Assembly (NCBI GenBank): GCA_013372975.1
Contig: JABXIS010000006.1
Span: 1 to 64,000 of the forward strand
Source: Alphaproteobacteria bacterium
Lineage (GTDB): Bacteria > Pseudomonadota > Alphaproteobacteria > Sphingomonadales > Kordiimonadaceae
Length of the DNA: 64,000 nucleotides
Direction: 5' to 3'
Below, piece by piece: positions 8,954-21,831 of the stretch (positions within the stretch are counted from its first letter, which is position 1; every line of letters begins with the position of its first letter). The position numbers were made by a program, and so were the translations under genes. The notes under the pieces were generated by a model. The model was given only the letters and a program-made list of their open reading frames with translations. It was not told where the DNA came from and did no database searches.

Positions 8954-9156
8954 TTTTTGGCCTCAATCTTCTTATAATCCGCCCTACCGTGTGCTCCTGT
9001 AACCAGAATTAACTTGCGCCGCCGGTTCGCAGACTGTAATTCAGCCGTAATATTCAGGCACACAGCTGTTCCGAAGTGAACAGGTTTTGTCAGGTCAAAA
9101 GCAAGCGTTATTTTGGCCTAGGCATTTGTGTGCCAAGTATGTAGTTTGTATAAAGT

Positions 9157-9170
9157 TTCGGCGTGCCGAA
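9157..9170. promoter_or_regulatory. Inverted repeat upstream of the sphingolipid operon
   Basis: TTCGGC-GT-GCCGAA, a perfect 6-bp inverted repeat, lies about 55 bases before the start of the acyl-AMP ligase gene in the 271-base divergent region. It could be an operator or a small mRNA hairpin. No clear -35/-10 pair was identified next to it. Confidence 0.35.
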
Positions 9171-9224
9171 GGCTTTGTATTGTGGTTTTGTAAAGTCCGG
9201 CCAAGGTTTAAACTTGGGGCAAAT

Positions 9225-10976
9225 ATGGTTGAAGCCGACGTAATGAATGCAGTGACACCAACGCAGGATCCGACGCTGGAACGGCGTTATTCGGATTTTG
9301 ACACGCTCGTTGAGGCAATCGAGTACGCCGCTAAAGGCCTTCGCGGGCCGAACTTTTTCAATGCGCGTGGCGATCTTGTTGAATCTCTCCCATGGCGAGA
9401 AGTTCGCGACCGGGCTGAAGTCATCGGCCGCAAACTTGTGGGCATGGGCTTTGAAAAGGGCGACCGCATTGCCCTGATTGCTGAAACCAGCGCTGACTTT
9501 GTCTGTTTCTTTGTAGGGTGCCAATACGCCAGCGTGCTGCCTGTACCCCTGCCCCTGCCAACTTCTTTCGGTGGCAAGGACGGCTATGTCTCCCAGCTTC
9601 AGGCACAAATGCAAAGCTGTGACGCCAATGGCCTGATGGCACCAGGCTTCATGAATGAAATTGTGGCCGAAGCGACCGAAGGTATGGAACTACGGTTCAA
9701 AGGCAGCTATCAGGATTATCTTGATGCCGCGAAGGATGGTGACCTTCGCCTGCCAACAACCGATGATCTTGCTTACCTGCAATATAGCTCCGGCAGCACC
9801 CGCTTCCCGCATGGTGTAGCTGTAACCCACCGTTCACTTCTTTCCAACACCCACGGCATGGGTTTCCATGGTGTAAGACTGGAAGAAGATGATCGCTGCT
9901 GCAGCTGGCTGCCATTCTATCATGACATGGGCCTCGTGGGCACGCTTCTGACCACACTTACCTGTCAGGTTTCGGTTGATTTTATCCCGACAGAAGAATT
10001 TGCCCGCCGCCCACTTTCCTGGTTGCGAGTACTGAGCACCAACAAGGGCACGATTACATATAGCCCAACCTTCGGTTTTGATATCTGCTCCCGCCGCGCT
10101 GCACTGCGGTCGAGCGCGCTTGAAGGGCTTGACCTTTCCAGCGTTCGTGTTGCCGGTTGCGGCGCCGAGATGATCCGCCCCGAAGTAATGCGTGAGTTTT
10201 ACAACACCTTCAAATCAATTGGTTTCAAGATGGGGGCTTTCCTGCCGTCCTACGGCCTTGCGGAATGTACGCTTGGCGTAAGCTTTGGCACCGTTGGCAA
10301 GGGCATTGAGATCGATCTGATTGAAGAATCAATCCTTACAGGCGACAAGCATGTGCTTGTGAATGGCTCCGACAGCCAGCCTCGCATGCGCGAAGTGGTA
10401 AACTGCGGCAAGCCATTGCCTGAATATGAAATTGAAATCCGCGGTGAAGATGGCCAGGACCAGCCTGAGCGTTCTGTTGGCCGTGTCTTCCTGCGTGGCG
10501 TATCGGTGATGCGCGAATATTTCAATGACCCGGAAACAACGCGCGCCGTTCTCAGCCCAGAAGGCTGGCTCGACACGGGCGACATGGGTTACATGAAAGA
10601 CGGCTGCATCTATATCGTTGGCCGCGCCAAAGATATGATTATTGTTAACGGTCGAAATCATTGGCCGCAGGACATCGAATGGGCAGCAGAGCAGCTTCCG
10701 GGCGTTAAAACCGGTGATGTTGCAGCCATTTCCGTACCTGGCGAAAATGCCGAAGAAGTGCCGATGATATTGGCTCAGTGCCGCCATTCCGAAACGGCGG
10801 ATCGCCTGAAATTCATTGAGGACCTCAAGAAACACATCCAGAAATCGACAGGCATCAACTGCATGATCGAACTGGTACCGCCACGGTCCCTGCCGCGCAC
10901 TTCATCTGGCAAACTGAGCCGTGTGAAAGCCCGCAACGAATATCTCGCAGGCAACCTTCAAGCTCTCGCCAGTTAA
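9225..10976 (+). CDS. aasR: Fatty acyl-AMP ligase / acyl-ACP synthetase of sphingolipid pathway
   Basis: A 583-residue ANL-superfamily adenylating enzyme. It activates a fatty acid with ATP and, by context, loads it on the dedicated acyl carrier protein encoded downstream. Seen: the P-loop YLQYSSGSTRFPHGVAVTH, the SWLPFYHDMGLVG segment typical of fatty acyl-AMP ligases, LPSYGLAECTLGVSFG (A5), GWLDTGDMGY (A7), RAKDMIIVNGRNHWPQDIE (A8) and PRTSSGKLSR with the catalytic Lys. Family members run 570-600 residues. ATG 9225 is chosen after TTGGGG; ATG 9243 is possible. Only two bases separate it from the reductase gene. The symbol follows the Caulobacter equivalent as I recall it. Confidence 0.88.
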   Translation: MVEADVMNAVTPTQDPTLERRYSDFDTLVEAIEYAAKGLRGPNFFNARGDLVESLPWREVRDRAEVIGRKLVGMGFEKGDRIALIAETSADFVCFFVGCQYASVLPVPLPLPTSFGGKDGYVSQLQAQMQSCDANGLMAPGFMNEIVAEATEGMELRFKGSYQDYLDAAKDGDLRLPTTDDLAYLQYSSGSTRFPHGVAVTHRSLLSNTHGMGFHGVRLEEDDRCCSWLPFYHDMGLVGTLLTTLTCQVSVDFIPTEEFARRPLSWLRVLSTNKGTITYSPTFGFDICSRRAALRSSALEGLDLSSVRVAGCGAEMIRPEVMREFYNTFKSIGFKMGAFLPSYGLAECTLGVSFGTVGKGIEIDLIEESILTGDKHVLVNGSDSQPRMREVVNCGKPLPEYEIEIRGEDGQDQPERSVGRVFLRGVSVMREYFNDPETTRAVLSPEGWLDTGDMGYMKDGCIYIVGRAKDMIIVNGRNHWPQDIEWAAEQLPGVKTGDVAAISVPGENAEEVPMILAQCRHSETADRLKFIEDLKKHIQKSTGINCMIELVPPRSLPRTSSGKLSRVKARNEYLAGNLQALAS

Positions 10977-10978
10977 AG

Positions 10979-11935
10979 ATGACAGAAGAAATCGCCTCTC
11001 AAGGTGCCAAAGGAACGGTCGCTCTTACGGGTGCGACCGGCTTTCTTGGTGGCCATGCAGTCGATAGCTATCTGGACGCTGGCTATAGCGTGCGCGCGCT
11101 CACCCGCCGTGAACAGCCTGCCCGTGATGGCGTCACCTGGATCAGGGGTGATCTGGATGACCGTGCCGCGATGGACGAATTGTGCGCGGGCGCACAGATT
11201 TTGGTGCATATCGCAGGCCTTACCAAGGCCCTTAACCGCGATATCTTTTTCGACGTGAATGTGGGCGGCACGCGCAAACTGTTTGATGCGGCGGCAGAAG
11301 CCGACATCAAGCATGTGGTCTATGTGTCCTCCATGGCGGCGCGTGAGCCTCTCTTGTCGCACTATGGGGCCAGCAAGCGCGCGTCAGAATTGGTGCTCAC
11401 GGCCCGCAACTGGCCTTTCACATGGACGATCGTTCGCCCACCCGCAATTTACGGCCCAGGTGACAAGGAAATCCTGAAGCTTCTAAAAGCACTCAAATTC
11501 CGCCTGTTGCCAGCGCCCGGCAGTAGCCGAAACCGATTTGCCATGATTCATGGCCGGGATATGGCAGATGCACTCGTTGCGCTGTCTGACGGAAAGTTCA
11601 AAAGCGCAGTATTGGAGGTTGATGACGGTAAATCCGGTGGCTATACAATTGCCGAGGTTGCCGAAGCCATCTCCGCCCCCGGCCAGAAACAGCCCTTTAT
11701 CCTGCCAATCCCATTTGCTGTTCTTGGTTCCATCGGCTTCCTGAACGGTATCATCGCCAGGCTGATCAACCGCCCGGCCATGCTGACCATGTCCACCGCT
11801 CGCTATCTTTGTCATAATGATTGGACAGTCAGAAATGCCCGTCGCCCGCACATGACTAATTGGTCGCCCAAATTTGACCTTAAAGCAGGTTTAAAGGACA
11901 CGATCGACTGGTATCGTAAAAACGGGCTTTTATGA
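10979..11935 (+). CDS. cerR: NAD(P)-dependent extended SDR, CerR-like
   Basis: A 318-residue extended short-chain dehydrogenase. Seen: the Rossmann motif GATGFLGG (18-25), VHIAGLTKA, VVYVSSMAA, the catalytic pair Tyr129 and Lys133 (YGASK), and VRPPAIYGPG. In Caulobacter the homologous gene beside spt encodes CerR, which reduces the 3-keto group during ceramide formation. I assign this role by context; the fold alone could be any epimerase/dehydratase. It starts two bases after the stop of the acyl-AMP ligase, so the two are coupled. A 69-base gap with a small hairpin separates it from the ACP gene. Confidence 0.85.
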   Translation: MTEEIASQGAKGTVALTGATGFLGGHAVDSYLDAGYSVRALTRREQPARDGVTWIRGDLDDRAAMDELCAGAQILVHIAGLTKALNRDIFFDVNVGGTRKLFDAAAEADIKHVVYVSSMAAREPLLSHYGASKRASELVLTARNWPFTWTIVRPPAIYGPGDKEILKLLKALKFRLLPAPGSSRNRFAMIHGRDMADALVALSDGKFKSAVLEVDDGKSGGYTIAEVAEAISAPGQKQPFILPIPFAVLGSIGFLNGIIARLINRPAMLTMSTARYLCHNDWTVRNARRPHMTNWSPKFDLKAGLKDTIDWYRKNGLL

Positions 11936-12256: not shown

Positions 12257-13462
12257 GTGGACCTGCTAGACAAATTCGACGCCGTTGCCAACCTGAAGGC
12301 ATCCCTGCCCTTCAAGGAAGCTGATCCTTTCACTGTTGTGATGGAAGAAATCATCTCGGAAACCGAAGCCGTGATCAATGGCAGACGGACAATTCTGGCG
12401 GGCACCAACAATTACATGGGCATGACGTTTCATGACGAAGCCGTCCAGGCGGCCAAGCAGGCACTGGATGATTTCGGCACCGGAACAACAGGAAGCCGGT
12501 CCCTGAACGGCACCTACGCCAGCCATAAGAAGCTCGAAGAAACCATCGCCGATTTTTACGGCATGAAACATTGCATGGTCTTTTCCACGGGCTATCAGGC
12601 CAACCTGGGCATGATTTCTGCCCTTGGCGGCAAAGACGATTACATCATCATCGATGCCGACAGCCATGCTTCCATCTATGACGGTTGTTCCATGAGCAAC
12701 GCCACCATCGTGCGCTTCAAGCATAACGACGTAGACAATATGGAACGCCGCCTGAGGCGCCTGCCGGAAGACGCAGGCAAGCTGGTGGTGATTGAAGGCA
12801 TTTATTCGATGCTGGGTGACGCTGCACCAGTGAAAGAGCTGCTGGAAGTGGCCAAGAAATATGGCTGCATGACATTGGTAGACGAAGCCCATTCCATGGG
12901 TTTCTGCGGCGAAAACGGCCGCGGTGTCGCCGAAGAACTGGGTGTTGAGCATCTGGTGGACTTTTACGTGGGCACCTTCTCCAAGTCTGTTGGCACGGTT
13001 GGCGGCTTTGCAGTGTCCAATCACCCGAAATTCGATGTGCTGCGCTTTGTGAGCCGCCCTTACATCTTTACCGCCAGCCCGCCGCCAAGCGTTGTGGCCA
13101 GCGCGACGAAGGCCATTGAAGCCATCAAGCATGGCGGCAACCGCCGCGCCCACCTGTGGGAAAATGCGCGCCGCCTGCACGCGGGCCTCAAAAAGGCTGG
13201 CTTCAACCTGTGCACCGACAAGGCGGAAAGCCCTATCATCGCTGTGCATCTGCCTGACGCCATGATCAGCACCAAATTCTGGGAGCAACTGATCATGGAA
13301 GGTGTATATGTGAATATGGCCGCGCCGCCCGCCACACCCGCAGGTATGTTCCTGATGCGCGTGAGCGTGTGCGCACAGCACAGCACCGAACAGATTGACG
13401 AGATCATCAAGCGCTTCAGAACCACAGCCGAAAAAGTAGGCCTTGAGCTGAAGCCTGAATAA
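12257..13462 (+). CDS. spt: Serine palmitoyltransferase (alpha-oxoamine synthase)
   Basis: A 401-residue PLP enzyme condensing L-serine with a fatty acyl thioester to give a 3-keto sphingoid base. Seen: NNYMGM (substrate region), DFGTGTTGSRSLNGT, FSTGYQANLGMIS, DADSHASIYDG (His138 stacks on PLP), LVDEAHSMG (Asp209), and GTFSKSVGTVGGF with Schiff-base Lys243. These are shared by the whole family (ALA synthase, KBL, BioF). The adjacent ACP, acyl-AMP ligase and CerR-like genes make SPT by far the best choice. The start codon is GTG, with GAAGG ten bases upstream. A strong terminator follows. Confidence 0.92.
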   Translation: MDLLDKFDAVANLKASLPFKEADPFTVVMEEIISETEAVINGRRTILAGTNNYMGMTFHDEAVQAAKQALDDFGTGTTGSRSLNGTYASHKKLEETIADFYGMKHCMVFSTGYQANLGMISALGGKDDYIIIDADSHASIYDGCSMSNATIVRFKHNDVDNMERRLRRLPEDAGKLVVIEGIYSMLGDAAPVKELLEVAKKYGCMTLVDEAHSMGFCGENGRGVAEELGVEHLVDFYVGTFSKSVGTVGGFAVSNHPKFDVLRFVSRPYIFTASPPPSVVASATKAIEAIKHGGNRRAHLWENARRLHAGLKKAGFNLCTDKAESPIIAVHLPDAMISTKFWEQLIMEGVYVNMAAPPATPAGMFLMRVSVCAQHSTEQIDEIIKRFRTTAEKVGLELKPE

Positions 13463-13531: not shown

Positions 13532-14476
13532 TTACTTGAAAGCGCCCTTGCGCTTGAGGCCCCAGAACAGGGAAATCCCTGACAAGACCGGATGCCGGCG
13601 CATGCGATCGGTGATTTCCACCTCAACGCCCGAATGACGCTTGATCTTCCATGCCAGATAATCAATGCCGCCATCGAATGTCATGGATGCCTTCACAAGG
13701 CGAAGGAAACTTACGAACTTACCGTTCCAGCGGCGCGCCCACCACTTGAGGCGCGGCACCAGCCGCTCCGTCCGGGGTGGCTGCTTGATCGGCGGGATCG
13801 GTCCCGGATCCACATCCATGGCTTCTTCCGCTAGCGCCGTCAGCGCGTCATAACGGTCCTGGTCCAGAAGATAAATCTCCAGCCCTTTGCCCTTGCGCTC
13901 TGACCTAAGTTCCGCCGCATAGGTTTGTTCAAACGCTTCCACCCAAAGGTCCCGCGACATAGTGGCGCCGGGGATCAGCTCCAGAAGGTTACCAAGCATG
14001 GTCTTGATCGCTTGCGCCACATCACCGGCGATTGACTGTTTGGTCATGTCATCACGGGGATGGAGCAGGATACAAGGCTGGCAGAACCGTGCCCAAACTG
14101 ACACATTCAGGCATTCCGGCCGCACCCGGAAAGCGAAATCATCACGCGACAGCACAGCATATTTGGACCGCACCGTCATCCCGTTCACTTCAATCTCGTG
14201 ATAGAAAACATTGGGCGGCAAAATCTGGTTGGCAACTGCCAGCCAGCGTTTTTCATAGGCTTCCTTATAGCTGTCTACGATCACATAGAAATCGAGAATT
14301 TTTTCCTCAATCTCACCCGTGCGCAGGCAGGAGCCATAAAAGAGAACACCTGAGACACAATCGCCAAAACGCTCACCAATGGCCTTGGCAGCCACCAGCA
14401 CAGCATCTGGCACCGGACGTTTCCATTCGTCCAGAATAAAGGTCGTCAATTCCTTGTCAGCGTTCGTGGTCATCAT
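13532..14476 (-). CDS. Tam41/pol-beta-like nucleotidyltransferase of sphingolipid locus
   Basis: A 314-residue soluble protein with a nucleotidyltransferase core. VLFYGSCLRTG gives the GS motif, followed after about 15 residues by ILDFYVIVDSY, where one Asp of the usual DxD is kept. This pattern resembles the CDP-diacylglycerol synthase Tam41 family more than antibiotic nucleotidyltransferases. The C-terminus is basic (KWWARRWNGKFVSFLRLVKAS; RRHPVLSG), suiting membrane contact. It starts five bases after the lipid-kinase stop, so the two are one operon. In Caulobacter a gene at this position (CpgC, as I recall) is needed for the ceramide phosphoglycerate head group. The exact reaction is unknown. 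Confidence 0.75.
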   Translation of the reverse strand: MMTTNADKELTTFILDEWKRPVPDAVLVAAKAIGERFGDCVSGVLFYGSCLRTGEIEEKILDFYVIVDSYKEAYEKRWLAVANQILPPNVFYHEIEVNGMTVRSKYAVLSRDDFAFRVRPECLNVSVWARFCQPCILLHPRDDMTKQSIAGDVAQAIKTMLGNLLELIPGATMSRDLWVEAFEQTYAAELRSERKGKGLEIYLLDQDRYDALTALAEEAMDVDPGPIPPIKQPPRTERLVPRLKWWARRWNGKFVSFLRLVKASMTFDGGIDYLAWKIKRHSGVEVEITDRMRRHPVLSGISLFWGLKRKGAFK

Positions 14477-14481
14477 AGTCC

Positions 14482-15492
14482 CTATTTTAGCGACACAAAT
14501 GTTAAAGACCTGTTGCCCTTGAGAACAATTTCTTTCCCAGGAACAGGATAATATATTTCACCGTCCAGTGTAACAGGATCCGTACCGCCAATACGAACTT
14601 CATCAGAGCGGCGGGTGTGGGTTCCCTGAATGAATTTTTTACCAAAGGTGGTGTTCAGAAGCCCTTTGATCGCGCGGAATACATTCCCGCCCCCGGCCTC
14701 AATCGCGGAAAACTTCAGGCCACCTTTGCCTTCTTGCCCATAGGGCCGCATGCGAAGGAGCAAACGATCCAGCGTGGTGCACATAACGGCCGCGAATTCA
14801 CCATTCAGGCGCGCGCTTCCCGGCACAATCACCGACATCGGATCAGACACCATCAAGCGTTTGTCTTTGCCAATACCAAAGGCAGAAAGCAGCAGCTTGA
14901 AGATAGCCACAAAATGCGCAAGTCCGTTGGGGAGCCCCATCTCATAGGCGTGCTCGCGGCACCACTCGATGCCTTTCACAACGCCCGCTGTACCGAAAAA
15001 TGTACCCACTTGCGGGGTTTTGCCATCACCCAGATCCATTTCGATCAGGTGCATACGTACCAGACTATCAGGCACCCCGCCCTCTTTCGCCAAACCAATA
15101 AGCCGGCGCAGCACTTTTTCAGGCTTGCCTTTGAAACCAAGGTCCGCCGCTGTCATGTTCGTTTTCCCGCCCGGCAGGAAAGCAATGGGCGGGATAACAT
15201 CAAATGGATTGCGATAGAGGAGTGCCGCAAGCACGGCTCCGATAGTGCCGTCACCACCGTTCACGATCAACATTGCCGGATTGGCTTTGGCAAACAGAGC
15301 CAAGGCTTCATCAATCGTCTCAATGCCGTTCAGCTCGAAATGCACCACATTGGCACTTTCATCGACCACTTTGCGAATAGTATCGATCCGCGAAGCATTT
15401 GTTGTGCTTAGCGGGTTGGAGATTATCGCGATAAGCGGCACGGTGGCACCAGACTGCACGCTGTTGGTATCCAGTTGCATTGTCAAACTCAT
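14482..15492 (-). CDS. cpgB: Diacylglycerol-kinase-family lipid kinase, probable ceramide kinase
   Basis: A 336-residue lipid kinase of the DAGK catalytic family. Seen: PLIAIISNPLSTTNASRI at the N-terminus and LIVNGGDGTIGAVLAALL with the nucleotide-binding GGDGT; a YegS-like beta-sandwich follows (VTLDGEIYYPVPGKEIVLKG near the end). By position between spt and the sphingolipid permeases, and by the Caulobacter parallel (CpgB, described as a bacterial ceramide kinase), it probably phosphorylates ceramide. Diacylglycerol remains an alternative. The ATG at 15492 is preferred over an upstream GTG; its ribosome site is weak. It is coupled to the following nucleotidyltransferase. Confidence 0.82.
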   Translation of the reverse strand: MSLTMQLDTNSVQSGATVPLIAIISNPLSTTNASRIDTIRKVVDESANVVHFELNGIETIDEALALFAKANPAMLIVNGGDGTIGAVLAALLYRNPFDVIPPIAFLPGGKTNMTAADLGFKGKPEKVLRRLIGLAKEGGVPDSLVRMHLIEMDLGDGKTPQVGTFFGTAGVVKGIEWCREHAYEMGLPNGLAHFVAIFKLLLSAFGIGKDKRLMVSDPMSVIVPGSARLNGEFAAVMCTTLDRLLLRMRPYGQEGKGGLKFSAIEAGGGNVFRAIKGLLNTTFGKKFIQGTHTRRSDEVRIGGTDPVTLDGEIYYPVPGKEIVLKGNRSLTFVSLK

Positions 15493-15634
15493 GTAACAAA
15501 ACACGCCTACTATATGTAAGTATGGCGTGGCGTTCGTTCAATATTTGCCGCTTTCATACAGGGAAAAGTACCAAAGCGCAAACCGCGCCTTCTCTGGGCG
15601 CAATATGTCGCAGTTAATTTTGGAAAACGACCTG

Positions 15635-16192
15635 TTAGCGGCGGCGCAATTGGCGGCGTTTTTTCATCTGCTCTTCATCTGCCCCGAAAATATATTTCAG
15701 GTCCACACTCATATCGAGCACACCAGCAGGCGCATCAAAAACAACTTCATCCGCATCTGGCGGGGACAGGTTCAATTTCGGATTATTGGAAAAACCAAAA
15801 CCTTCCGAAAAGAAATCCGCTTTGCCGTTTTCGTTCCGGTCATGCATCACAACAAGGGTATAGCGGCCCGGATTAGGCATAGGCACACAAATCTGTTGCC
15901 CGTCACCTTCGGTTTTCACGTCAACCCGGACCAGCTTCTTGCCCTTTTCCAGAAAGTCGTCTTTGCTGGGACCATAAATCTGCACCCGCACATTGCCTTC
16001 TTCGTCTTTGAAACCAGAAACTGATACACGCACATAAGATCTGCCAGAAGCTGGCGCTTCACAAAGCTGCGGGTCATGGTCAACGGTCGCGTCCTGGCCT
16101 TTTGCGGCCATTGCCGGAACGCTTGCACAAAAACCAGCCAGCAGGCCGGTAGCCACCAATTTACTCAGAACGCTTGGGCGCATGTTGCTCAT
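15635..16192 (-). CDS. DUF2141 family periplasmic protein
   Basis: A 185-residue exported protein. The signal peptide (about residues 1-30) ends ASVPAMAAKG. The DUF2141 beta-sandwich contains VRVSVSGFKDEEGNVRVQIYG, GRYTLVVMHDRNENGKADFF and GFGFSNNP, a set typical of the family. The D-x-N-x-N-G-K stretch resembles a Ca2+-binding loop. ATG 16192 follows GGAGAAG and opens the signal peptide. It lies 142 bases upstream of the kinase on the same strand and divergent from the LptF-like gene. The function of DUF2141 is unknown; here it may handle or bind sphingolipid in the periplasm. The C-terminal tail is strongly basic (KKRRQLRRR). Confidence 0.85.
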   Translation of the reverse strand: MSNMRPSVLSKLVATGLLAGFCASVPAMAAKGQDATVDHDPQLCEAPASGRSYVRVSVSGFKDEEGNVRVQIYGPSKDDFLEKGKKLVRVDVKTEGDGQQICVPMPNPGRYTLVVMHDRNENGKADFFSEGFGFSNNPKLNLSPPDADEVVFDAPAGVLDMSVDLKYIFGADEEQMKKRRQLRRR

Positions 16193-16361
16193 AAACTTCT
16201 CCGGGCATCGCCTTCTCCAAAGCAAATGGAGGTCGATGGTGGCAAAAATATGTCCCATATGACGACAAATTGGTTATAACTCAACAAGCTTTTGCCTTCT
16301 TTCAGGTTTCTATGGGGGAAAGTCCCTTGCATCTCGGCCTCAACAGGTGTAGCGCCAACAC

Positions 16362-17552
16362 ATGTTCACACGCATAGACAGATATGTTCTTCGCCAGATT
16401 CTTGGCCCCTTGTTCACAACATTGGGCATCGCCGCCCTGTTGTTGATCCTAGAGCGCATGCTCAGGCTGTTTGACTTTGTGGTCAACCAGGGTGGCCCGG
16501 TTGAAGTAGTATTCCAAATGCTGGCCAATCAGGTGCCGCACTATATGGGACTTGCCCTGCCAATTGGCTTGATGCTTGGAACGCTACTGGCGTTCCGGAA
16601 AATATCTCTATCAAGCGAATATGACGCTATTACGTCATCTGGCATGGGTCTGAGCCGGCTGGTGAAACCGGTGCTTGCACTGTCACTTTTGCTGGTGCTC
16701 ATAAATACCGTACTTGTGGGCTGGATACAGCCCTATGGTCGTTATGCCTATCGCAGCCTTGTTTTTGATCTGCGGAGCGGCGCCCTGGGCGCGAGCATAC
16801 GGGTGGGTGAATTTGTCGATATTGGCGACAATATTACACTGATGATTGAAGAATCCCGCAATCAGGGCGCAGAGCTTCTTGGCATCTTCATGGAACGCCG
16901 CAGCGATGGACGCAGCCTTGCCGTCAGCGCCGAACGCGGCGGTTTCTTTGCCACAGACGATGAAAACACCATTCTTCTGCGCCTTTATAACGGCGTGCTG
17001 GTTGACCTCAACGAGGGCCAGAACAAGCCGCGCGTGCTCACCTTTGACCAACAGGACCTGACGGTAAAACTCCCTGCCAAGGAAGCTTTCAGACGACGCG
17101 GCGGTGAAGAGCTGGAGATGACGCTTCCGGAATTATGGACGGAAAAGGACAATCCGCTTCATGATGCCACAGACCGTGCCGCATACACAGGCAACTTCCA
17201 TTGGCGGGTGATGCATTCGATCACCTTCCTTGTGTTGCCCTTCCTTGCCATTCCGCTGGGGCTTACCAACAAACGAACCGGCAAGGGCACAGGCATAGTC
17301 GTGGGGCTCGCGCTGTTGATTGTTTATAACGAGCTGATGGAAGCGATGGAAACTGCCGTGAATAACGGCGCTTCGCCATATGGTACCATCTGGCTGTTGT
17401 TCTCGCTCTTTACACTACTCAGCCTATCATTATTCCATATCGCAGCGCATAAGGTTGGCGGTGAACCGCTCGCCTGGGTCGATAAAAGCTGGGCCTTCAT
17501 CAGCGGGCCAATCAAGCGGCTTTCCAAGAAAATCATGGGAGTGGTTGACTGA
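16362..17552 (+). CDS. LptF/YjgP-family permease, sphingolipid locus paralogue
   Basis: A 396-residue LptF/LptG-family membrane protein. MFTRIDRYVLRQILGPLF opens the first membrane helix; two more helices follow (YMGLALPIGLMLGTLLAF and LVLINTVL). A periplasmic beta-jellyroll spans about residues 125-260, and three C-terminal helices follow (FLVLPFLAIPLGL...). In LPS export LptF and LptG sit with LptB2 and extract LPS from the inner membrane. This copy is not beside lptD/surA/pdxA/ksgA, the usual alphaproteobacterial neighbourhood, but within a ceramide gene set. It overlaps the LptG-like gene by one base (TGATG). Whether it is the only LptF of the genome cannot be seen. Confidence 0.85.
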   Translation: MFTRIDRYVLRQILGPLFTTLGIAALLLILERMLRLFDFVVNQGGPVEVVFQMLANQVPHYMGLALPIGLMLGTLLAFRKISLSSEYDAITSSGMGLSRLVKPVLALSLLLVLINTVLVGWIQPYGRYAYRSLVFDLRSGALGASIRVGEFVDIGDNITLMIEESRNQGAELLGIFMERRSDGRSLAVSAERGGFFATDDENTILLRLYNGVLVDLNEGQNKPRVLTFDQQDLTVKLPAKEAFRRRGGEELEMTLPELWTEKDNPLHDATDRAAYTGNFHWRVMHSITFLVLPFLAIPLGLTNKRTGKGTGIVVGLALLIVYNELMEAMETAVNNGASPYGTIWLLFSLFTLLSLSLFHIAAHKVGGEPLAWVDKSWAFISGPIKRLSKKIMGVVD

Positions 17553-18721
17553 TGAATATCGCCCGCACCCTTCGTCGTTTGCTTATTCCGTCACGCACCT
17601 TGGCGCGTTATATGGTGCGCATGCATCTGGGGCGTTTTTTCGGTATCCTGATCGGCCTGACAGCCGTTCTCCAGATGCTGGACCTTCTGGCTACCGCCGA
17701 TGAGATCATGGCCGCCGATGGCGCGAGCTGGGTATCGATTGTTTCCTATGTCAGCATGCGGGCACCCCAACTGATCAGCCAATTTGTACCCTTCACCGCG
17801 CTTCTGGCGACACTTTTGACACTTGCAACCCTGAATCAGAATTCGGAAGTGGTTGTGATGAAGGCCAGCGGCCTTTCTGCCCACCGCATCCTGCTACCAC
17901 TGGGCATCGCCTCCTTTATCATCGCCGCAGGGCATTTCATTTTCAATGAAACCGTCCTCGTGAAGGCCAACGCCGATCTGGAATATTGGCAGGACAACGA
18001 TTACGCCGTTGATCTGCCACCCTCACCCGGCACCACTGGCCGTGTTTGGCTCAAGGAAAATGGCACCATTGTTCTCGTTGAAGCCGTGAGCCAGATCAGG
18101 AACCGTGTCGTTTTGGATAAAGTGTCACTGTTCGAGCGTGATCCTGCAGGCAAACTGACTGCCATGGCGAAAGCGGATTTCGCCTGGTACCAGAACGGCA
18201 GGTGGACCCTGCATGATGTGCGCCGGTTTGATGCCCAAAGCCACCAGATGACAGTCGCGTCGTCCGAGCCATGGAACATCACTACACGGCCCGAGCGTTT
18301 TCAGGCGCTAACCGTACAGCCGGACCATGTTTCTTTCCTGAAGCTTTGGGATTCGATGAAACAGCTTGAACGTGATGGCCTGCCCACGGGCCGCCTGATG
18401 GCCAGCTTCCTTCAGAAGGTGGCGGGGCCCGCTTCTTCCCTTCTGATGCCGCTTCTGGCTGCTGTGGCTGCCTTTGGTGTGCACCGGGCAGGCAACCTGG
18501 TACTCCGGATCGTATTTGGCATGGCGCTTGGCTTCAGCTTCTTTGTGGCTGACAACTTCATGCTGGCCATGGGCGAATTTGGCGTGGCACCACCGTTCCT
18601 TGCGGCGTGGGCCCCGTTCTTCCTGTTCCTGGTGCTTGGCTATGCGGTCATCTTCCATACGGAAGAAGGCACCAAGCCAATAACGACACCCAAGGCCGGA
18701 AAGCCTGCAAGCCGTGACTAA
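17552..18721 (+). CDS. LptG/YjgQ-family permease, sphingolipid locus paralogue
   Basis: A 389-residue partner of the preceding LptF-like protein. LARYMVRMHLGRFFGILIGL forms helix 1; MRAPQLISQFVPFTALLATLLTL resembles the conserved LptG helix 2-3 region; a periplasmic jellyroll occupies about 140-255; C-terminal helices include KVAGPASSLLMPLLAAVAAFG and a final LFLVLGYAVIF. Together the two would form the membrane half of an ABC-type lipid extractor; no LptB-like ATPase is in the window, so they would share the housekeeping one. Its end overlaps the flippase gene by eight bases. The coupling of five genes suggests one operon from lptF-like to ceramide synthase. Confidence 0.85.
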   Translation: MNIARTLRRLLIPSRTLARYMVRMHLGRFFGILIGLTAVLQMLDLLATADEIMAADGASWVSIVSYVSMRAPQLISQFVPFTALLATLLTLATLNQNSEVVVMKASGLSAHRILLPLGIASFIIAAGHFIFNETVLVKANADLEYWQDNDYAVDLPPSPGTTGRVWLKENGTIVLVEAVSQIRNRVVLDKVSLFERDPAGKLTAMAKADFAWYQNGRWTLHDVRRFDAQSHQMTVASSEPWNITTRPERFQALTVQPDHVSFLKLWDSMKQLERDGLPTGRLMASFLQKVAGPASSLLMPLLAAVAAFGVHRAGNLVLRIVFGMALGFSFFVADNFMLAMGEFGVAPPFLAAWAPFFLFLVLGYAVIFHTEEGTKPITTPKAGKPASRD

Positions 18722-20288
18722 CCCTGAGAATAACAATTCTGAAAACAACACACCCGATTTCGCTGAAACCAGCGAAAACCTTGCGCGCGTGGCGGGCGGG
18801 GCCGGCTTTGCCTTCCTCGGCCAGATGGGTGCCTTGGTGGAAGCCGTGTCGGTTATTGCTTTCACATGGTTTTATGGTGCCGCCACCTTCGGGCTTTTTG
18901 CTGTTTTATGGTCCTATGTGAAGGTATCCACTGCTGTTTCTGACGCAGCCATGACCACGGCCCTTCAGCGGTTTGTGCCCAAAACCGATGAGGCGGGGGC
19001 CGATATGGTCACAGGTTATGCCCTCAAGTTCAGCACCATCCTCGCCACGCTGTTTGCAGCCGTAGCCTGGTATTATGCCCCTGAACTGGCGGGCTTCTTC
19101 AACGCGGCCGAAACCGATGCCGGACAGCTTGTTACCGTGATCCGCATCTATGTGTGGGTGCTGCCGTTCTGGACGATTGTGGAAGTGGCCACCGCTGCCG
19201 TAAGGGCGCGCCGTACCTTCGGCCCTGAAATCCGCGTGCGCATCTTCTATGAACAAGGCCTGCGGCTTGTGGCCGCTGTGGGTTTCGCGCTCGCGGGATT
19301 CATGACTTACGGGCTGTTCCTGTCTCATCTCGTTAGCGTGATCCTGTCAGCTGGCCTCGCACTTCGGCTTGTGGCCAAATATTATAATTTCGGCGCCATG
19401 ATGCACGCGCCGCTGACCGGCCCGATGGCACGGGAAGTGTTCCATTATGGCTGGTCACTGGTGCCCGCCAACCTGATCAAGAAACTGTTCAGTGAATTCC
19501 CGGTGATGTTCCTCAACTTCATGCTGCCGGGTGCGGCGGGCGCGTCTGCGGGCGGCTATTATGCCGTGGCGCGCAAGATCGCCAGTGCGCTGCAGGCCGT
19601 GCGCACCACATTCGAATATGTGATCGCGCCCCTCGCATCAGAAAAACATGGGGACGGTGACCACGGCGCCCTCAAGGACATGTATGCTTACTCCACGCGG
19701 CTGTCGATCACCATCGCGCTCCCGTTCGGGGCGGCGCTCATTCTCGCCCGACATGATATTCTTGCCGTGATGAAGCCAGAGTTTCAGGCTGCCGCGATCG
19801 CGATCGCGGTTCTGTGCGCTGGCCGCATTATCGAGGCCGCCACCGGCCCTTCGAGTGCCCTTATCGAAATGCTGGGCCACCGCCTGTTGCCCGCCATTAA
19901 TGGCATCGCGGGCTTGGCCACGCTTCTGATCCTTGGGAATATGCTGATCCCTGAGTATGGCGTTACGGGCGCGGCCTTTGCCGCCGCCGCAGGCATCAAC
20001 GCCACCGCCATCCTGGCTTTCATCCAGACATTGGTGATCTATGGCCTGTGGCCATACGACAGGTTCGCCTTCAAGCCCGTGTGCGTGTCGCTCCTGACGT
20101 CGGCGATCATGTTCGCGCTGATCCCTTACAGCAAGGACTGGGCAGCCCCCATTGGCATTATCGCCTCTGTGGGGGGGCTTTTGCTGGCCATGGCCATGCT
20201 GATCCGCTATGGCCTCAGTCATTCTGATGCCGTGGCGCTTGGCAGGTTCGGCAAGCTCAAGAAAATCAAGAAACTGGCGGAAGACTGA
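18714..20288 (+). CDS. MOP-superfamily polysaccharide/lipid flippase
   Basis: A 524-residue multi-pass membrane protein with about 12-14 hydrophobic segments, of the Wzx/MurJ/MATE-like (polysaccharide_synt) type. Features include AGGAGFAFLGQMGALVEAVS at helix 1 and GGYYAVARKIASALQAVRTTFEYVIAPL mid-protein. It probably flips a lipid or lipid-linked glycan across the inner membrane. The start is GTG, overlapping the LptG-like gene by eight bases, and the stop overlaps csaA by one. In this setting a glycosylated or plain sphingolipid is the attractive cargo, but no glycosyltransferase is present in the cluster. The soluble first 30 residues are Asn/Glu-rich. Confidence 0.82.
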   Translation: MTNPENNNSENNTPDFAETSENLARVAGGAGFAFLGQMGALVEAVSVIAFTWFYGAATFGLFAVLWSYVKVSTAVSDAAMTTALQRFVPKTDEAGADMVTGYALKFSTILATLFAAVAWYYAPELAGFFNAAETDAGQLVTVIRIYVWVLPFWTIVEVATAAVRARRTFGPEIRVRIFYEQGLRLVAAVGFALAGFMTYGLFLSHLVSVILSAGLALRLVAKYYNFGAMMHAPLTGPMAREVFHYGWSLVPANLIKKLFSEFPVMFLNFMLPGAAGASAGGYYAVARKIASALQAVRTTFEYVIAPLASEKHGDGDHGALKDMYAYSTRLSITIALPFGAALILARHDILAVMKPEFQAAAIAIAVLCAGRIIEAATGPSSALIEMLGHRLLPAINGIAGLATLLILGNMLIPEYGVTGAAFAAAAGINATAILAFIQTLVIYGLWPYDRFAFKPVCVSLLTSAIMFALIPYSKDWAAPIGIIASVGGLLLAMAMLIRYGLSHSDAVALGRFGKLKKIKKLAED

Positions 20289-20694: not shown

Positions 20695-21831
20695 GTGAGC
20701 GACGTGACCATCAAAGAAATCAAGGATGTTAAGGGTCTGAAGGACTTCGTAAACACCACCCGGCAGGTGTATGCGAATGACCCCAACTGGATCCAGCCCC
20801 TGATGATGGAACGGATGGACGCCATCCGCCGCGACAAGAACCCCTATTACGAGCATGCCGAGGTGGCGCACTGGGTGGCCTATGCGGGCGGCAAGTCTGT
20901 TGGCCGCATCACCGCGCAGGTGGACAGCCTCGCGCAGGAAAAGTGGGGCCCGAACCTTGGCCATTTCGGCTTCTTTGAAGCCACCACTGATGAGGTTGCC
21001 GGGAAGCTGCTCACTACCGCTGAAGAATGGCTTAAGGCGCGCGGCATGAAGCGTATGCAGGGGCCATGGTCCCTCAATACCGCCGAAGAGGTGGGCACGC
21101 TGATCAAAGGGTTTGATACCCCGCCCGTGTTCATGATGCCGCACGGCAGGCCTGAGTATGATGGCTGGCTGAAGGCCCACGGCCTTGATAAAGCCAAGGA
21201 TATGCATGCTTTCCGGCTTGATCTTCTGAAACCAGCGCCTGAACGCGCCCTCAGGATCGTGAAGATGGCGGAAAAGAACAAGAAGGTGACCATGCGCGAG
21301 ATCGATATGAAGCGTTTCGACGAGGAAGTCGCCACGGTTCTGGATATCTATAACGAGGCATGGTCGGAAAACTGGGGGTATGTGCCCTTCACCAAACATG
21401 AGGTGGAGCACGGCGCCAAGGCGCTCAAACCCGTGGTGAAACCCTATCGTACCATGATCTGCGAATATGAAGGTGAGCCTGTGGCCTTCATGCTGACAAT
21501 CCCTGATGTGAACCACAAAATCCGCGATCTGGACGGCAAGCTGTTCCCGTTTGGCTGGGCCAAGGTGGCCTGGCGCATGATGAACGGCCGTGAAGATCGC
21601 TGCCGTGTGCCGCTGATGGGTGTCAGAAAAAAGTTCCAGAAAGGCCCCTTGGGCGCTGCCATGGCCATGTGGATGATCCAGGTATCGCAGCGGAACGTGA
21701 TGGACCGCGGGGCATACTTCGGTGAACTGGGCTGGATTCTTGAGGACAACGACGGGATGATCAGCATCCTCGAGGAAATCGGCTGCGAGATTTACAAGAC
21801 CTACCGGGTGTATGAGAAGAAGATTGGGTAA
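20695..21831 (+). CDS. cerS: GNAT-fold acyltransferase, probable bacterial ceramide synthase
   Basis: A 378-residue soluble protein of a large GNAT-like family. Features: FVNTTRQVYANDPNWIQPL near the N-terminus, the RMQGPWSLNTAEEVGTLI segment, PPVFMMPHGRPEY, NEAWSENWGYVPFT, and the C-terminal FGELGWILEDNDGMISILE. This arrangement is what I recall for the bacterial ceramide synthase of Caulobacter, which N-acylates the sphingoid base and is unrelated to eukaryotic CerS. The same family includes many uncharacterised acetyltransferase-like proteins; the locus makes ceramide synthase the best call. GTG start with GGGGAGG upstream. It ends the sphingolipid island. Confidence 0.82.
   Translation: MSDVTIKEIKDVKGLKDFVNTTRQVYANDPNWIQPLMMERMDAIRRDKNPYYEHAEVAHWVAYAGGKSVGRITAQVDSLAQEKWGPNLGHFGFFEATTDEVAGKLLTTAEEWLKARGMKRMQGPWSLNTAEEVGTLIKGFDTPPVFMMPHGRPEYDGWLKAHGLDKAKDMHAFRLDLLKPAPERALRIVKMAEKNKKVTMREIDMKRFDEEVATVLDIYNEAWSENWGYVPFTKHEVEHGAKALKPVVKPYRTMICEYEGEPVAFMLTIPDVNHKIRDLDGKLFPFGWAKVAWRMMNGREDRCRVPLMGVRKKFQKGPLGAAMAMWMIQVSQRNVMDRGAYFGELGWILEDNDGMISILEEIGCEIYKTYRVYEKKIG

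Follow-up and report, generated by a model that had tools for sequence, protein, structure and literature searches.

An LptF-LptG permease pair of a second family in a ceramide gene cluster, and its probable role in sphingolipid export in Alphaproteobacteria without detectable LpxC

In a 64,000-nucleotide stretch of an alphaproteobacterial genome (assembly GCA_013372975.1, contig JABXIS010000006.1, positions 1 to 64,000; the window below), two genes for LptF- and LptG-like lipopolysaccharide (LPS) export permeases are followed by one for a MOP/MatE-like flippase, at positions 16362-20288 within a set of ceramide genes. We think it likely that this pair is an exchanged permease set of the Lpt bridge, exporting sphingolipid instead of LPS, and in the lineage of the window it would most likely serve a sphingolipid-only bridge, with presumed cargo and direction. 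On a wider scale we lean towards the view that conversion of the entire Lpt bridge to dedicated sphingolipid export happened independently in several alphaproteobacterial lineages, which gave up lipid A and the LPS-type LptFG pair and retained LptB, LptC, LptA and LptD, so that the gate pair alone would set the cargo. The sequence evidence consists of gene content, two families of permeases, an empty pepA-lptD site, the retention of LptA, LptB, LptC and LptD, and a family-specific gate. In the mechanism that we envisage, the flippase would place the sphingolipid, either ceramide or its phosphorylated form, in the outer leaflet of the inner membrane, and LptF and LptG of the second family (LptF2 and LptG2) would extract it together with a housekeeping LptB dimer; the lineage would have lost lipid A synthesis along with the LPS-type lptFG pair, leaving the whole bridge to sphingolipid.

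The genes for LptF2 (16362..17552), LptG2 (17552..18721) and the flippase (18714..20288), all on the plus strand, are tightly packed, with lptF and lptG overlapping by 1 base and lptG and the flippase gene by 8 bases. With the Pfam model PF03739 (cut-off 27.9 bits) LptF2 and LptG2 score 219.3 and 230.3 bits, respectively, and NCBIfam names each over cut-off as its own partner of the pair, TIGR04407 for LptF and TIGR04408 for LptG. The flippase, a candidate sphingolipid flippase, gives a weak match to MatE (PF01554, 26.1 bits, cut-off 24.9) and matched no NCBIfam family. Genes for serine palmitoyltransferase (SPT), a lipid kinase and a DUF2141 protein flank the trio on one side and a gene for a 378-aa protein on the other. 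The LptFG-SPT neighbourhood recurs in further genera and families of the order and also reaches into other orders, so the arrangement is more than chance. Positions 16362-18721 are an annotation trap, NCBIfam equivalog models calling LPS export permeases in a genome without an LpxC or LpxB match.

The genome that contains the window (3.63 Mb in 96 contigs; completeness 100, contamination 0.81) belongs to the Kordiimonas genus group, and the Kordiimonas gwangyangensis locus (L081) stands at 80% in LptF. Its two PF03739 matches both lie in the window, making this the sole lptFG pair of the genome. No LpxC match was found in it, and neither LpxC nor LpxB was found over cut-off in any of the 31 genomes comprising it and 30 relatives, a search that did not extend to LpxA, LpxD, LpxK, WaaA, LptE or MsbA. 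In 14 control genomes LpxC was matched in four and LpxB in six, four of the latter over cut-off. PF03739 was matched in 30 and LptC in 27 of the same 31 genomes. The remainder of the bridge is encoded elsewhere in the window genome: contig C36 carries pepA followed by lptD and surA, with no lptFG between them, this lptD being the only one and having a reading frame open along its whole length, and contig C63 carries lptC-lptA-lptB-rpoN together, with LptB identified by TIGR04406 (374 bits). Given that no genome of this set shows LpxC or LpxB over cut-off, LPS export looks unlikely.

An earlier note on this DNA, made from its letters alone, had described overlapping LptF-like, LptG-like and flippase genes inside the ceramide gene set, without lptD, surA, pdxA or ksgA neighbours and without an LptB-like ATPase, which would be borrowed from the housekeeping set. 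The overlaps are there, with cluster genes on both sides, and tblastn with LptD, SurA, PepA and LptB of the same genome gave no match in the window (pdxA and ksgA were not among the queries), the housekeeping lptB being the one on C63. The note's term paralogues, implying a second copy, does not hold for a sole pair, and the further pair that it would have sought beside lptD is absent. Of its two options, a sphingolipid extractor working instead of or besides LPS export, the first is favoured and the second disfavoured because neither LpxC nor LpxB was found. As a case that would speak against its idea, the note had named a sole lptFG pair essential for LPS export; the pair is indeed the only one, and, judging by gene content, its being essential for LPS export is unlikely.

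The usual alphaproteobacterial site of LPS-type pairs, between pepA and lptD, is informative in this regard. In the window genome the gap between these genes is 144 bp and holds no genes. Across all fragments of LpxC-negative second-family genomes in which both genes are present it is empty, at 144-387 bp, in 15/15; in fragments of LpxC-positive genomes with both genes it spans 2.5-7.6 kb and contains lptF and lptG in 10/10. More generally, none of the 21 lptD-holding fragments from LpxC-negative genomes with the second family has lptFG beside lptD. Some LpxC-positive fragments deviate, with lptD lacking lptFG alongside in L187-L189 and only LptF detected at the site in L181-L185 and L191.

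The fetched loci were of two kinds. In the LPS-type the pair adjoins lptD, usually with pepA on its other side; in the other kind it adjoins SPT, the lipid kinase and other cluster genes. A FastTree phylogeny of 106 domains separated the LPS-type from the second family. In IQ-TREE phylogenies of hand-chosen representatives (41 LptF and 44 LptG) the second family is split from the LPS-type with 100/100 support for LptF and for LptG, and the window pair falls in the second family. The possibility that it is a relocated LPS-type pair was thus rejected on both trees; forcing three Kordiimonas-side LptF rows into the LPS-type was rejected modestly (p-AU 0.034). LptF-LptG fusions, at which long open frames had hinted, were dropped as candidates, LptF and LptG being separate open reading frames in the loci read. 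A sister group of LptFG pairs lies outside the ceramide cluster, mostly in Parvularculales (L095-L114, L120 and L125) and also in relatives of Kordiimonas (L042 and L044), and shows Q instead of R at LptF position 30 among the rows listed.

The two families also differ at the lateral gate, whose helices the earlier note had proposed for comparison with canonical LptF and LptG. In an E. coli-type structure, according to the excerpted text of PMC6744409, LptG K40 touches the 4'-phosphate, LptG K41 the inner core and LptF R33 the 1'-phosphate. LptF position 30 (E. coli numbering) is basic in 58/58 second-family proteins beside cluster genes, in 29/57 unsorted proteins (those of short loci, the sister group and solo genes) and in 0/24 LPS-type proteins. 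LptG position 40 is basic in 1/59 second-family, 0/50 unsorted and 13/17 LPS-type proteins, and position 41 in 4/59, 3/50 and 13/17, respectively; this LptG comparison depends on the register, the hidden Markov model (HMM) alignment and MAFFT lying three residues apart in the first transmembrane helix, and that of LptF is gap-free. In neither register is position 40 or 41 of the window LptG basic, and some other second-family rows have a basic residue there in the HMM register. LptF R33 is kept in 58/58 second-family and 16/24 LPS-type proteins. As position 30 is R in 22/22 second-family LptF proteins of LpxC-positive genomes, the gate follows the family and not the loss of LPS.

Other features would fit a working Lpt permease. 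The coupling-helix glutamates, given in the excerpted PMC5082905 as LptF E84 and LptG E88 of E. coli, are invariant across all aligned LptF and LptG groups (E86 and E99 in the window LptF and LptG), and the LptB of the window genome has IFR at the presumed groove site, as placed by eye. A model of LptF2 (pLDDT 83.4, pTM 0.68) places strands at 151-236 between helices, as in membrane helices with a periplasmic jellyroll, and retrieves 25 PDB matches at E <=0.001, all of them LptF or LptG chains, some titled unspecifically, with TM-scores by query of only 0.50-0.60. Profiles cover PDB LptF and LptG chains at nearly full length, the best match of each being its own partner. The jellyroll comparison suggested in the note, done for LptF alone, agrees with that architecture. 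Its notion of a sphingolipid extractor borrowing LptB is supported, indirectly, by cluster membership, the separate clade, the different gate, the coupling glutamates and an LptB elsewhere in the genome.

To see how the second family relates to LPS synthesis, we scanned genome contigs with the second-family LptF alignment, kept 80 loci and took the genomes behind 50 of them for searching. By identical places, this set of 50 shares four genomes with the 30 relatives and three with the class sample described below. LpxC was found over cut-off in 30 of the 50. All 30 LpxC-positive genomes have at least four LptFG genes, and 18 of the 20 LpxC-negative ones have exactly two. The two exceptions, G171 with three and G183 with five, are both of the Kordiimonas group, and in the tree their extra genes are placed on the side of the second family. 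LptD is single in 20/20 LpxC-negative genomes and present in 18/18 LpxC-positive genomes searched, one of which has it split into two pieces. The LPS-type identity of the other copies in LpxC-positive genomes was read in fetched regions, which cover some of these genomes. Fisher's p for the presence of the LPS-type (2e-14) is descriptive only, because it takes no account of kinship or of the genomes having been chosen for carrying the second family. SPT lies in the fetched locus of 18/20 LpxC-negative and 16/30 LpxC-positive genomes; of the 14 LpxC-positive loci without SPT, 10 have neither SPT nor the lipid kinase nor a 314-aa cluster protein, and these belong to the Parvularculales sister group.

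In the LptF tree as in the LptG tree, LpxC-negative members lie nested within LpxC-positive ones: Fodinicurvata, Aquibaculum and a Kiloniellales metagenome-assembled genome with Pelagibius; Dongia and Vineibacter/SYSU D60007 with SYSU D60014; and the Kordiimonas-Sphingomonas side with marine Rhodospirillaceae. A PepA tree implies at least eight changes of LpxC state, a count that leaves out three rows (LpxC-negative genomes with an LPS-type pair). As support for the backbone of this tree is poor, we limit the claim to several independent losses. In a class sample of 142 genomes LpxC was detected in 117 and LptFG in 131. Among the 25 LpxC-negative genomes 17 have LptFG and eight do not, and LptD is present in 16/17 of the former versus 1/8 of the latter; thus, LptD tends to go once LPS and LptFG are both gone. 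Eight of the 17 have the second family only (G000, the window genome; G022, G066, G068, G087, G105, G122 and G160), with G122 read through G197, which is the same genome, and G087 on a long branch with no SPT nearby; two more, G103 and G109, are untyped as to LptFG family. In the same sample one genome, G095 (5.4 Mb in one contig, completeness 100), gave no match for LpxC, LptF/LptG or LptD, and seems to be a large alphaproteobacterial genome that has no LPS export at all.

The idea of a paralogous Lpt set for sphingolipids has already been published for Caulobacter. As far as the excerpts of PMC11324152 go, the Caulobacter sphingolipid cluster holds a second LptC, LptF and LptG together with a flippase, and these are suggested to carry phosphosphingolipids to the outer membrane; how sphingolipids pass between the two membranes is called unknown there and is not studied further. 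The same excerpts place orthologues of the cluster genes in other bacteria too, among them Sphingomonas wittichii and Zymomonas mobilis, so the orthologue figure may already imply a second pair in LPS-free bacteria. We did not find the LPS-free exchange in the literature searched: no report of LPS-free bacteria with only a second-family pair and retained LptB, LptC, LptA and LptD came up in open literature, a judgement made from titles, the opening lines of abstracts and term counts, with subscription papers and preprints mostly outside it. Likewise, no report on Kordiimonas lipids was found among the matches listed.

The likeness to Caulobacter crescentus LptC2/LptF2/LptG2/CC_1166 lies in LptF and LptG genes with a flippase inside a ceramide cluster, and refers to the described gene set rather than to sequence orthology with CC_1156/CC_1155. 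Caulobacter, however, has LpxC and an LPS-type pair in addition, as well as a second LptC, whereas the window genome has the second-family pair only, with LpxC and LpxB not found, and a single LptC match (PF06835), at the lptA-lptB site, that search revealing no second one. With the E. coli LptB2FGC-A-D LPS exporter it shares the fold, the coupling glutamates and LptB, LptC, LptA and LptD, but it lacks an LpxC or LpxB match and its pair sits in a ceramide cluster; relative to LPS-type relatives, the second family is basic at LptF 30 and has mostly lost the basic residues at LptG 40-41. Sphingomonas is described in the excerpted PMC10964400 as having sphingolipids and no lipid A, with no transport system named in those excerpts. 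The Sphingomonadaceae genomes G182 and G185, without LpxC and with two LptFG genes and one LptD, resemble it; the window genome, in contrast, is of the Kordiimonas group and known here from genes alone.

Several observations weigh against a sphingolipid-only bridge. Pairs related to the second family lie away from SPT in 10 LpxC-positive genomes, and the 50 genomes are interrelated and were selected for carrying that family. Speaking against any strict rule, in seven of the 17 LpxC-negative class-sample genomes with LptFG an LPS-type pair lies near lptD or pepA (G048, G052, G088, G091, G116, G156 and G163; that of G052 by position alone). Five of these are 71-95% complete, and G091 (L198) and G163 (L197), small genomes at 100% and 99%, remain unexplained in having LPS-type LptFG beside lptD without LpxC. 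One relative (G010, the same genome as G171) has an LpxC match below cut-off (20.8 bits, model positions 20-88), which we left uncounted. A lipid A route without LpxC and LpxB is conceivable, given that the search covered these two of the lipid A genes. Finally, we infer cargo, direction, partners and the order of losses from sequence.

It is unlikely, in our judgement, that the bridge carries some other lipid or glycolipid and has sphingolipid genes nearby for other reasons. Such a cargo would suit the pairs that lie apart from SPT, in the Parvularculales sister group and among some of the copies in Kordiimonas, as well as the solo LptF-like genes beside glycosyltransferases; however, SPT accompanies the pair in the great majority of the LpxC-negative named genomes (the 18/20 above), across several orders. 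We regard as very improbable an ordinary LPS permease that happens to adjoin ceramide genes, with LPS made by a route invisible to the LpxC and LpxB models. The NCBIfam names, the retention of LptA, LptB, LptC and LptD and the four lipid A genes outside the search agree with it, but no genome of the 31 has LpxC or LpxB over cut-off, the pair lies outside the LPS-type clade, with the modest rejection given above, and the same family sits beside an LPS-type pair in LpxC-positive genomes. We give almost no credence to LptF2 and LptG2 acting on sphingolipid within the inner membrane only, with LptD, LptC, LptA and LptB relics or otherwise used. The permease genes are indeed unlinked to lptD or lptB in the window genome, but LptD there is intact in frame and, across the class, stays with LptFG in LpxC-negative genomes and mostly not without it.

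Such lineages are natural deletion experiments, in which lipid A genes and LPS-type permeases are gone, and what is left is the remainder of the bridge with permeases linked to sphingolipid. They offer a testable cargo and a sequence motif by which the two permease families can be distinguished, as well as a warning that genes named for LPS export may sit in organisms apparently without LPS.

The surrounding cluster begins with a fatty acyl-AMP ligase (9087..10976, plus strand; start codon probably further in; NCBIfam NF006624, 792.9 bits against a cut-off of 600), followed on the same strand by an NAD-dependent epimerase/reductase family protein (10979..11935; PF01370, 86.8 bits), by its position a candidate ceramide-pathway reductase, and by the SPT (12257..13462; NCBIfam NF047599, 608.8 bits against a cut-off of 500). 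On the minus strand are a conserved cluster protein (13532..14476), which matches no Pfam or NCBIfam family and also adjoins SPT in other genomes, the lipid kinase (14482..15504; PF00781, 52.7 bits), a candidate ceramide kinase with a presumed substrate, and the DUF2141 protein (15635..16258; PF09912, 81.1 bits). Beyond the flippase, the conserved 378-aa protein (20695..21831, plus strand), without a Pfam family and also adjoining the cluster in other genomes, is one that we take to be possibly a ceramide synthase. Elsewhere in the relatives G001, G011, G010 and G021 there are solo LptF-like genes without LptG (L043, L045, L046, L047 and L048) on the second-family side of the tree; L045 and L047 adjoin a family-4 glycosyltransferase and L043 adjoins DUF2334, and these genes possibly encode a third lipid or glycolipid permease.

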